Assembly (NCBI GenBank): GCA_025455065.1
Contig: JALONG010000048.1
Location: 1 to 64,000, forward strand
From: Candidatus Kapaibacterium sp.
Lineage (GTDB): Bacteria > Bacteroidota > Ignavibacteria > Kapaibacteriales > UBA4661
DNA: 64,000 nucleotides
Reading direction: 5' to 3'
Below, piece after piece: positions 10,136 to 54,572 of this stretch. The notes under the pieces were generated by a model, which worked only from the letters and a program-made list of their open reading frames with translations, searched no databases and was not told where the DNA came from. Position numbers and translations under genes: made by a program. Numbering within the stretch: position 1 is the first letter of the stretch; every line of letters begins with the position of its first letter.

Positions 10136-10792
10136 ATGAAAGCGGTCTTCACCTTTCTTGCTCTTTGCGTTATGACGGTCTTCACCCACAACGCAGACAC
10201 TTTTGCACAACAGCGCCCCGCTACGACAGGCACAATAGCAGTGCGCCCTTCAACCACAGGCACGGTACGCCCCGCCACCACAGGTACAGTGCGGCAGCCG
10301 GAGCGCCCTTCAACGACAGGTACAGTACGCCCTTCAACATCAGGCACAGTGCGGCAGCCGGTGCGCCCCTCGACCACAGGTACGGTGCGTCCTTCAACCA
10401 CAGGTACAGTACGCCCTTCAACCACAGGTACAGTACGCCCTTCAACCACAGGTACGGTGCGTCCTGACACCACACGCCCTCAACCACGCGACACCGTGCG
10501 CCCTGAGCCACGCGACACAACGCGACCATTTGTTTCGGGTATTGTCGTCAGAGCCTTCCCAAATCCTGCTTCTGTGCGGCTTGTCGTGGGCTTTGCGAAT
10601 CTTCCGCCGCGTGCAGAACGAGTAACAGTGCGCATTTTGACGACAACGGGCGAAGAATTGCTGTCGGAGACCGTTCCGGCAACACAAAGCGAGGTGATAT
10701 TTGATGTCTCCCGCTTGCGCGAGGGGCAGTATGTTGCGGTTGTGAATGTAGCGCGGGTTGTGGGTAGAGCGGTGGTGATTATTCGGCGCTAA
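10136..10792 (+). CDS. Secreted TTGTVRPS-repeat protein with a putative type IX sorting domain
   Basis: 218 residues. GGAGA six nt before the ATG fixes the start. Layout: signal peptide 1-25; low-complexity repeats of RP(S/A)TTGTV at 27-110; a Pro/Arg/Thr linker to 131; then an 80-residue C-terminal domain beginning VVRAFPNPASV and ending VAVVNVARVVGRAVVIIRR. The FPNP entry, the GQYVAVV strand and the basic end match the type A sorting domain used by the T9SS. The repeats look like a surface stalk or attachment region. That it is exported by a T9SS is inference, since no T9SS machinery gene is in the window. Confidence 0.75.
   Translation: MKAVFTFLALCVMTVFTHNADTFAQQRPATTGTIAVRPSTTGTVRPATTGTVRQPERPSTTGTVRPSTSGTVRQPVRPSTTGTVRPSTTGTVRPSTTGTVRPSTTGTVRPDTTRPQPRDTVRPEPRDTTRPFVSGIVVRAFPNPASVRLVVGFANLPPRAERVTVRILTTTGEELLSETVPATQSEVIFDVSRLREGQYVAVVNVARVVGRAVVIIRR
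10214..10465 (+). repeat. 24-bp coding tandem repeats (RPSTTGTV units)
   Basis: About ten copies of a 24-bp unit encoding RP(S/A)TTGTV, twice interrupted by QPE or QPV. The last four units are almost identical at the DNA level, which suggests recent expansion. Confidence 0.9.
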
Positions 10793-17300: not shown

Positions 17301-17505
17301 CAATAGTCTGGACATTTTTAAAGAATCTAGGTTTTATGCAGGTTTCAAGCCGCGCTGTTTTTTACTCGAAATCTAGGTTTTATGCGGATTCCAGCAAAAA
17401 AGAAAATTTTGTCAGAAGCCCCATAAAATCTCAATTCTTGCTCAAAAACTTCCTGCTCTACAAGCCGCATAAAATCTAGCTTTTTGAAAAATGTCCGAAC
17501 TATTG
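17301..17505. repeat. MITE-like element A, long copy
   Basis: 205 bp bounded by inverted ends: CAATAGTCTGGACATTTTT (17301-17319) and AAAAATGTCCGAACTATTG (17487-17505). The similarity between ends extends inward to about 40 bp and includes copies of CTAGGTTTTATGC in opposite orientations. No ORF. A 135-bp internal-deletion relative lies at 36570-36704. The remaining spacer to 17658 shows nothing recognisable. Confidence 0.75.
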
Positions 17506-17658
17506 TTCCCATAGAGATGCTCAAAAATCATCCACAATACCACACCATCAGGAACTACGTTATTGCTTCTTAATTTTGTCCGAACCATTGATTGAATGAA
17601 CCTACTCTAATCACGAACTTGAGCTGCCTCCGAAAAACTGGACAGGTAGCATAGACGT

Positions 17659-18740
17659 GAATTCAAGTTACAAGTGCGAAAGTTGTAACGTGTTGGAACA
17701 GAATACCTCTGCTGGAGTTCGGAAGTCGAGAACCTTTCAAGGTCGGTTGTTTAATTTGTCCATAATTTTTTGACAATCCTCTTGGGTGAGATGCTCAAAG
17801 CCCATGGACTTTGGCAGGTACTGTCGAATCAAGCCGTTGGTATTCTCGTTGGTTCCTCGCTCCCACGAATGGTAGGGATGGGCAAAGAAGAATAACGCCT
17901 CCAACGTCTCGGCAATACGCTCAAACTTGGCAAATTCTTTGCCGTTATCGGCGGTGATACTCTTGACCTTATCACTAAAGGGCGTGAGAATCTCAATGGT
18001 TTTCTCTGCGCACGGCTCGGCGTGTTTGCCGACGAGTTTGCCGATGACCGTGAAGCGACTCGTGCGTTCAACTATTGTTACGATTGCTCCATCATGGCTC
18101 TTGCCAATGACGGTATCAATTTCCTAATGCCCGATATCGTCACGTGATTCAACCTCTGCCGGACGAGCATCAATGGACACTTTATTCGGTATCTGCCCAC
18201 GCTCTTGCTTGGAACCATAGCCTTTACGGTATTTCTTCGGAATATGGCGCAAATGCTCATAGAGCGTCCCGCCGACGCGCTTGTCGTCCCAAATATGCTG
18301 ATAAATGCGCTCATGCGATACCATCGCAATCCCTTCACGCTCGGCGCGTCCAACAATCTGTTCCGGCGAGAAATCTTTCCGAATCCATGCCTCAACCTGT
18401 AAGCGTATCGTAGAGGTAAAGTACACCTTGCGCGGCTTCGAGGCTTGACGCATCGCTGCTTTATCATTCGCTTGTTTCGGGCGGTAGCCCTTGAGACCGG
18501 TGTTCCGATTGATTTCCCGATAGATACTCGAAGGATGCTTCCCAAGCGATGAGGCTATCGCGCTCTTGGGCACTTTCTCGGTAAGTTTCTCATATATTTC
18601 GTATCTTTCCTCTTGGGTGAAATGCTGGTACATAACGATGTGCCTTTCGTTGGTGGATGACTCTTGGTCGGGTTTCTGCCAAAATAGGCATTTCACCCGA
18701 TTTTTATCATCTCAACTTTTCGCACTTACAACTTGAATTC
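17659..18740 (-). mobile_element. IS30-family insertion sequence, transposase inactivated
   Basis: About 1,080 bp. The ends are imperfect inverted repeats: the left begins GAATTCAAGTTACAAGTGCG (17659) and the right, read inward, begins GAATTCAAGTTGTAAGTGCG (ending at 18740); both continue GAAA(A)GTTG. One minus-strand transposase gene fills it. No target duplication is obvious. Size and gene content fit the IS30 family. Confidence 0.85.
17737..18633 (-). pseudogene. IS30-family transposase with an in-frame amber codon
   Basis: Translating through one TAG at 18124-18126 gives a full IS30 transposase of 298 codons. The N-terminal helix-turn-helix region (YQHFTQEERYEIYEKL, SAIASSLGKHPSSIYREI) and the DDE catalytic domain are present: EIDTVIG just after the stop, then SITADNGKEFAKFE and HPYHSWERGTNENTNGLIRQYLP, ending at 17737. 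The TAG is codon 170, in RDDIGH*EIDTVIG, where the family normally has Trp (GHWEIDT). A TGG-to-TAG change therefore separates the DNA-binding half from the catalytic half. No frameshift is seen. It should be inactive unless suppressed. Confidence 0.9.
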
Positions 18741-18975
18741 AAGAACTAATGTAGAAACGACACTGCACGAAATGGGCGATGATTCAACCACCTCACAAAA
18801 AAATGTTTGATATATCACATACTTTCTGCAACTTGCGTGTTTTGCGTATCATCCTCTCGTTAGACCTTATAATGACAATTCCTGCATCCGCAAGGAACTA
18901 TCACGCGCTCACAGGCATATTACGAGGAAATTGCTTCAAAAGCGCATCATTACGACTCATCCAAAACCATTCTTT
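18741..18975. promoter_or_regulatory. Upstream region of mreB
   Basis: About 235 bases between the IS30 end and mreB, with no convincing gene. This region must carry the mreBCD promoter; I could not pick out a reliable -35/-10 pair. Confidence 0.35.
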
Positions 18976-21231: not shown

Positions 21232-21364
21232 GCCGTAGCATAGACATTCTTGTCTGTGCCCTTAACGCCGTTAGGCGTAATTGCCGAAAGCATTCTAAAG
21301 ACTGACTTTGAAGATAATTCGCTTCGCTCATTTTGGTCACAGACAAGAATGTCTGTGCTACGGC
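21232..21364. repeat. Inverted pair of palindromic CACAGACATTCTTGTCTGTG repeats
   Basis: Arms at 21232-21259 and 21337-21364 are inverted copies of about 28 bp (GCCGTAGCAYAGACATTCTTG and onward), differing at about two positions. Each arm is itself a small hairpin (CACAGAC/GTCTGTG around ATTCTT). About 77 bp lie between. A third single copy occurs at 51819-51840. The element sits in the mreC-mreD spacer and could fold in the transcript. Confidence 0.8.
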
Positions 21365-35868: not shown

Positions 35869-36439
35869 TTATGTTAAGCATCCCGCCAAGCTATGAAGCG
35901 GGTTTGCGGGTATATTGTAGAATCGGACTTGTTGTGTCGGCGTTGGTTTTGTACGCGGAAAGCTGCGCTTTGGTCGCCGTGGAACGGGCGTTTGCAGGAA
36001 TAATACCGTCAGTTGCGCGAAGAGTTCATCGGTTGTATGTTCTGGCGCAAGCATCAATTCCAGCACATCACGGCGCAAGGTCGAAAATGCAACGGCATGA
36101 TTGACCTGCTGACGATGAAGGTTTTCTGCGGGTTTGGCATCAAGAATTGCCTGTGCATCAGCAGAGAAAACGGTTTCCATGTTGGAAACCAAGAGCGTTG
36201 CCCAAAAATCTTGGTAAATTAGATTCTTCACTCAAACCAGCAAACATTTCGATATTCATGACGTTTTTCACACGGTCAAAATAGGTTTCTTCGTTCCAGC
36301 GCAAAGAATAGATTTCACCAAATTCTTCGCTCGGATACTTTTCGGTATCAAGCAGTGAGGTGAAAAGGACTTCTTCCTCGCCTGTTGGCAAGTCAAGAAG
36401 GATGCACCGAATGGTAATCGTCTCCTGAAGACTGAGGGC
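35869..36439 (-). pseudogene. IS4-family transposase remnant, C-terminal part
   Basis: Two overlapping frames reconstruct the C-terminus of an IS4-type transposase. The upper frame reads TIRCILLDLPTGEEEVLFTSLLD and the full signature Y-(2)-R-(3)-E-(6)-K (IYSLRWNEETYFDRVK), then NIEMFAGLSEES. Near 36220 one extra base shifts the frame to IYQDFWATLLVSNMETVFSADAQ, continuing to the stop at 35869. The N-terminal two thirds are missing; the left-over ends close to a MITE-like repeat starting near 36464. Dead by both truncation and frameshift. Confidence 0.85.
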
Positions 36440-36463
36440 TTATACTGTTTTGATTTATTTTTA

Positions 36464-36569
36464 AGTATATTGTTCTTAAAATAAGCCATTATTAAAAAGC
36501 AAGTATTAAAGACACTTTAGTTTTTTCATGCCGCATAAATACTTGGTTAAAAATAACTGCTTAAATTAG
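36464..36569. repeat. MITE-like element B, copy 1
   Basis: About 105 bp of AT-rich sequence nearly identical to 54408-54518. It starts AGTATATTGTTCTTAAAATA, ends AACTGCTTAAATTA, and has short inverted ends (TTCTTAAAATAAGC against GCTTAAATTAAGAA in the other copy). It contains CAAGTATTAAAG and ATAAATACTT in inverted orientation. No ORF. It directly abuts element A copy 2. Confidence 0.75.
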
Positions 36570-36704
36570 CAATAGTTCGGACATTTTTCAATACGAGTAA
36601 GGAAAATTTGCCAAAAGCCTCATAAAACCTCAACTCTTGTCCGAAAATACTTCGCTGTACAAGCCGCATAAAATCTAGTTTCTTGAAAAATGTCCGAACT
36701 ATTG
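36570..36704. repeat. MITE-like element A, short copy
   Basis: 135 bp with perfectly complementary 19-bp ends, CAATAGTTCGGACATTTTT (36570-36588) and AAAAATGTCCGAACTATTG (36686-36704). The interior matches the right part of the 205-bp copy at 17301-17505 (CCTCATAAAACCTCAACTCT, CTGTACAAGCCGCATAAAAT) but lacks about 70 bp, as internal-deletion derivatives do. Confidence 0.8.
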
Positions 36705-51734: not shown

Positions 51735-51818
51735 TGTATATAATCTTCGGTTTCGCAAAATCTTGTCAATTATACCAATTTGAGTTGATAACTGTGCAAA
51801 AAAAATCCGGCTTCAGTG

Positions 51819-51840
51819 GCACAGACATTCTTGTCTGTGC
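51819..51840. repeat. Palindromic repeat GCACAGACATTCTTGTCTGTGC
   Basis: An 8-bp perfect stem with 6-nt ATTCTT loop. The same word occurs as an inverted pair at 21232-21364, giving three copies in the window, all between genes. Confidence 0.8.
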
Positions 51841-52146
51841 GAGTATTTATGCTGTTTCCAGAGAAAAGCCGCCGAGGATTTCATTGATTGAGGGCAACTG
51901 TTTCGGTACTCCCGTTGTCCGTCTTTTTCAGTTGCTGGTGCCCACCAAGAAGTATGGGAACCTACCCCTGCCGCAGTAGTATTTTTACACACTTCAGTCG
52001 TCGGGCGCAGGAAAGACCTGAACTGTCACGTGGTAGAGCGTCATTTTGTAACCAATCCAATCATCCTCAATCTTCGTTCCCAGATATTTTGCAAAAGTCC
52101 TAAAGCGGATTTTGAGTAATAGCTATCATCCACAGTAGCGTATAGC

Positions 52147-54402: not shown

Positions 54403-54407
54403 CCTTA

Positions 54408-54518
54408 GTACATTGTTCTTAAAATAAGCCTTTATTAAAAAACAAGTATTAAAGCCACTTTAATTTTTTTTTTATGTCGCATAAATACTTAGTTAAAAAT
54501 AACTGCTTAAATTAAGAA
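54408..54518. repeat. MITE-like element B, copy 2
   Basis: Near-identical to 36464-36569 through AGTACATTGTTCTTAAAATA and AACTGCTTAAATTA, with a longer T-run in the middle. Ends TTCTTAAAATAAGC (54416) and GCTTAAATTAAGAA (54505-54518) are imperfect inverted repeats. Confidence 0.75.
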
Positions 54519-54572
54519 TGATGTGCTTAGTAATCTGCATTAGTCCTGTACATTTGTTGTGAAAAAATTGTG

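Follow-up and report, generated by a model that had tools for sequence, protein, structure and literature searches.

A MITE family in a Candidatus Kapaibacterium genome and the IS4-superfamily insertion sequence that probably mobilizes it

Within the window, the 64,000-nucleotide stretch of Candidatus Kapaibacterium sp. DNA analyzed here, two short repeats at 17301-17505 and 36570-36704 raise the questions of what kind of element they are, how the longer relates to the shorter, and which transposase could have moved them. An earlier note had described them as copies with inverted ends and no ORF of their own, and the repeat pair was confirmed in both position and character (Table 1). According to the explanation that we favor, to which we assign a probability of about 0.95, both repeats are members of a MITE family, i.e., short non-coding DNA with inverted ends, the 205-bp copy being a hybrid of two subfamilies, and the enzyme that would mobilize them in trans is the DDE transposase encoded by an insertion sequence (IS) of the IS4 superfamily, which has the same ends CAATAGTYYGGACATTTT and makes a target duplication of 5-6 bp (mainly 6 bp).

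Table 1. Coordinates of the repeats and neighboring features (window positions unless another sequence is named).
Feature	Position	Strand	Remarks
Left 99 bp of a subfamily B MITE	17301..17399	-	83% identity to positions 38-136 of B copy C36
Left end CAATAGTCTGGACATTTTT of the B part	17301-17319		From the alignment of copies
Right 106 bp of a subfamily A MITE	17400..17505	+	99% identity to the MITE within the C24 IS
Right end AAAAATGTCCGAACTATTG of the A part	17487-17505		Inward reading CAATAGTTCGGACATTTTT
Right-end remnant of the putative mobilizing IS (transposase 3' end and outer inverted repeat)	17506..17590	+
Outer IS inverted repeat TGTCCGAACCATTG	17577-17590		IS end motif found on the reverse strand
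IS30 relic	~17640-18830		Between the POT transporter and mreB genes
IS30-like ORF	18124-18696		HTH_38 (Pfam)
ORF beside the second copy	35869-36231		No Pfam match
Standard subfamily A MITE, 135 bp	36570..36704	+	Perfect 22-bp inverted ends, 36570-36591 and 36683-36704
Second short repeat	36461-36569; 54405-54530; C38 (L031 53-176)
REP-like palindrome sites	51770-51869; 21338-21361; C38 IS (L031 1340-1439)
24/60-bp tandem repeats	10243-10494		Within long open frames

With ≤2 mismatches allowed, the window contains seven occurrences of the end core CAATRGTTCGGACA, where 0.86 would be expected, and none of 100 shuffles reached seven. The genome-wide search with the 19-bp end, which the earlier note had proposed as a check on whether these two copies stand alone, returned 62 matches at ≤3 mismatches versus 8 for the reversed control. 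Most of these matches pair in inverted orientation, 135-136 bp apart, and resolve to about 27 elements with ends CAATAGTYYGGACATTTTT, a count obtained by pattern search that may miss strongly diverged copies. The elements measure 113-137 bp, mostly 135-136 bp, carry inverted ends of 19-22 bp and have no ORF, being short, non-coding and bounded by terminal inverted repeats as MITEs are. Subfamily A (ends TTCGGACA, 135-136 bp) comprises five copies and half of the first window copy; subfamily B (ends CTGGACA, 136 bp), fourteen copies, a fragment at C130:96620 and the other half of that copy; and subfamily C (113-137 bp), six copies with a REP-like palindrome doublet as their interior, and there is one divergent element at C30:155267. 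The second window copy is a standard subfamily A member, with near-copies at C40:2883 (98% identity) and C130:57594 (96%).

Exact target duplications flank 13 of the 27 elements (6 bp in 10 and 5 bp in 3, versus shuffled-flank expectations of 0.51 and 0.10), and no exact duplication of 4, 7 or 8 bp was found among the 27. The multiple copies at unrelated sites, bordered by 5-6 bp duplications, bear out the proposal of a non-autonomous MITE. Neither window copy has such a duplication: the first is rearranged, and the second lacks one because it abuts the truncated right end of a different short repeat, which its right flank does not resume. Among eight genomes of the genus, subfamilies A and B are confined to that of the window, the other seven holding short end fragments only. 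Identity within subfamilies ranges from about 83 to 99%; therefore, the amplification was recent but did not occur all at once. No match of the MITEs to plasmids was found.

The strong folding of these repeats (z of -4.9 to -9.0) and the mostly intergenic position of the A and B copies in an open-frame test could also be read as marks of domesticated regulatory or structural elements, namely hairpins kept by selection. We regard this as very unlikely, as the inverted ends account for much of the folding, and the target duplications, the scattered unrelated sites, the subfamily structure and the lack of A and B elements in the seven related genomes form the pattern of a recent mobile family. 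A helical constraint on a fixed 136-bp length was also considered and dropped, given that the lengths of related MITEs extend from 113 to at least 179 bp. A limited literature search found no published IS701 MITEs or Ignavibacteria MITEs. It is well supported that the MITE family is new, of a known kind and with an ordinary mechanism, adding to the record an Ignavibacteria family with an identified driver IS.

The two window copies differ in length, and the 135-bp copy had been interpreted as a deletion derivative of a 205-bp parent, to which it does align once a gap of about 70 bp is opened; however, the 205-bp form is unique, all other A and B copies measure the standard 135-136 bp, and its right half runs on into IS sequence. 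Moreover, the 135-bp copy is not a deletion derivative because the halves of the 205-bp copy match different subfamilies, which makes the parental reading extremely improbable. On alignment, the 205-bp copy is a B/A recombinant in which a left half from subfamily B meets a right half from subfamily A, and its ends are unequal. Its A part is 84% identical to positions 30-135 of the second window copy, the stretch 17400-17559 matches the C24 subfamily A MITE and the IS sequence that follows it at 99% identity, and 17513-17566 is 78% identical to the C38 IS. A hybrid of this kind could have formed when an IS carrying a subfamily A MITE near its right end came to lie beside a subfamily B MITE, and an illegitimate deletion or recombination then joined the left half of B to the right half of A; we infer as the simplest history a deletion with the junction of the two MITEs at an A-rich stretch. 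MITEs lying within an IS can thus act as recombination points.

In the relatives G001 and G007, the POT transporter and mreB genes that flank the first copy are ~270 bp apart and enclose no insert, which provides, at the level of the locus, the empty site that had been sought. Since this spacing holds none of the material present in the window, the whole block was inserted, the IS30 relic included. An ORF overlapping the IS30-like one in another frame suggests a frameshift in this relic.

Transposase relics of IS30 and IS4 type had been reported beside the two copies, and one of them might be taken as the source of mobility. The IS30 assignment holds through its HTH ORF, although not as the driver: by eye, what look like the IS30 ends (AATTCAAGTTRYAAGTGCGAAA) bear no relation to those of the MITEs, and there is another IS whose ends are exactly those of the MITEs. 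The IS4 relic next to the second copy was not confirmed, as the ORF there has no Pfam match. Mobilization by either relic is consequently exceedingly unlikely. What directly adjoins the first copy, and had gone unnoticed in the earlier note, is the right end of the driver IS itself (Table 1).

The genome contains two IS copies with MITE-type ends, at C24:29462 and C38:45201-46771. The latter is a decayed element of 1571 bp that retains both ends, with a broken transposase gene interrupted by a REP-like element. The former begins with the same left end and has a frame of 439 aa; close to the transposase 3' end it harbors a subfamily A MITE bordered by TTCCCA on both sides. Removal of the MITE and one TTCCCA restores the transposase frame, open over 257 of 264 codons, whose end, compared by eye, reads IEMLKNHPQYHTIRNY and resembles PEMIKNHPEFSAIRNY of an intact relative in the same-genus genome G005. 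Insertion of the MITEs is therefore documented by empty sites both in the C24 frame and at the POT-mreB locus. The intact G005 IS (JAAFIV010000056, an Ignavibacteria MAG) measures 1394 bp and encodes a 426-aa transposase, and IS ends 94-97% identical to it lie at contig edges in G002 and G004, a recurrence expected of a multicopy IS. Within the 131-contig assembly of the window's genome no intact transposase was found, and a collapsed repeat could be missing from such an assembly; a contig scan with the C24 transposase as sole query returned nothing, and an alignment query was needed. As a separate observation, the left IS end and the right end of the embedded MITE at C24 (C24:29462-30917, L032) delimit a unit of 1456 bp in which the outer right end is lost; the transposase core remains encoded there, its C-terminal tail being supplied by the MITE.

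The MITEs thus share their ends with the C24, C38 and G005 ISs, as well as with the wider clade described below, along with the duplication length. The presence of such full-length ISs in the genome and the genus strongly supports the proposal that a transposase recognizing CAATAGTTCGGACA moves the MITEs, and from these sequence matches the driver transposase would act on them in trans. An origin of the MITEs by internal deletion of the IS was rejected, as their interiors match the ISs at the ends only; because the interiors are not IS-derived, the match between MITE and IS rests on the ends and the duplication length.

Judged from its motifs, the driver transposase is a DDE enzyme of the IS4 superfamily with a full YREK signature. 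Its matches are to Pfam DDE_5 and to the IS701_3 and IS4 models of NCBIfam, none of them reaching the cut-off; the DDE residues of G005 and C24 are spaced 111 and 128 apart (D111D128E), and Y-2-R-3-E-6-K/R was found in 20 of 20 clade members examined. Relatives with 28-38% identity occur in Latescibacteria, cyanobacteria, Acidobacteria, Saprospiraceae and gammaproteobacteria. The 66 clade members with recognizable ends carry CAATRSTYCGGACA, a similarity partly selected, as ends were located by motif, and exact duplications of 6 bp flank 22 of them, of 5 bp seven and of 7 bp two. Chance would nevertheless not be expected to place full end matches immediately beside the gene with duplications outside them.

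The placement of this clade among described families is less straightforward. The driver resembles the IS4 family (De Palmenaer et al. 2008, PMC2266710) in its complete Y(2)R(3)E(6)K motif, its D111D128E triad, its single ORF and its 1.3-1.6 kb length, possessing the complete YREK and DDE of that family, whereas its CAATRSTYCGGACA ends match no subgroup consensus in Table 1 of that work and its duplications of 5-7 bp (mainly 6) fall short of the 7-13 bp of IS4. IS701_3 is the best NCBIfam model (E about 1e-25); however, the score of about 89 bits lies under the curated cut-off of 170, and the driver combines complete YREK with a 6-bp duplication, unlike IS701, with incomplete YREK and exactly 4 bp. 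IS1634 has similar AT-rich duplications of 5-6 bp, but the driver's matches to the NCBIfam IS1634 models are weak or absent, far below cut-off, and the complete YREK of the driver is absent in IS1634. The 2008 classification associates YREK with duplications of about 10 bp, and duplications of 4-6 bp (about 5) with incomplete or no YREK (PMC2266710). With complete YREK and a mainly 6-bp duplication, the driver clade therefore fits none of the ten groups of 2008 (PMC2266710) and cuts across that division, although subsequent updates of ISfinder may by now include it.

MITEs with the same ends are also found outside the genus. A Latescibacteria genome holds three 136-bp repeats with these ends and 5-6 bp duplications, and in the genome of the cyanobacterium Hormoscilla the same ends enclose elements of 119-179 bp; their interiors are unrelated. 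These independent MITEs point to a driver IS clade that spawns MITEs repeatedly. Nezha, a short cyanobacterial MITE from Zhou et al. in 2008, is similar in size to the MITEs of the window's genome, and its mobility is reportedly attributed to an IS (ISNpu3-like). We raise as a tentative possibility, which we think rather doubtful, that the driver represents an unrecognized phylum-spanning IS group with complete YREK, a 6-bp duplication and CAATRSTYCGGACA ends, repeatedly spawning MITEs of about 120-180 bp, and that in this genus such ends captured a REP doublet, giving subfamily C. If this were true, REP sequences would move by a classical DDE transposase.

Further repeats were observed in this genome. 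The REP-like palindrome GCACAGACAAGAATGTCTGTGC, which also forms the interior of subfamily C, occurs at about 265 sites genome-wide, frequently in inverted doublets with a spacing of about 50-100 bp, and the genome carries two Y1_Tnp (RAYT-type) genes. The second short MITE-like repeat measures about 110-125 bp and has imperfect inverted ends (TTAGTACATTGTTCTTAAAATAAG). The window additionally includes a set of 24/60-bp tandem repeats (Table 1).
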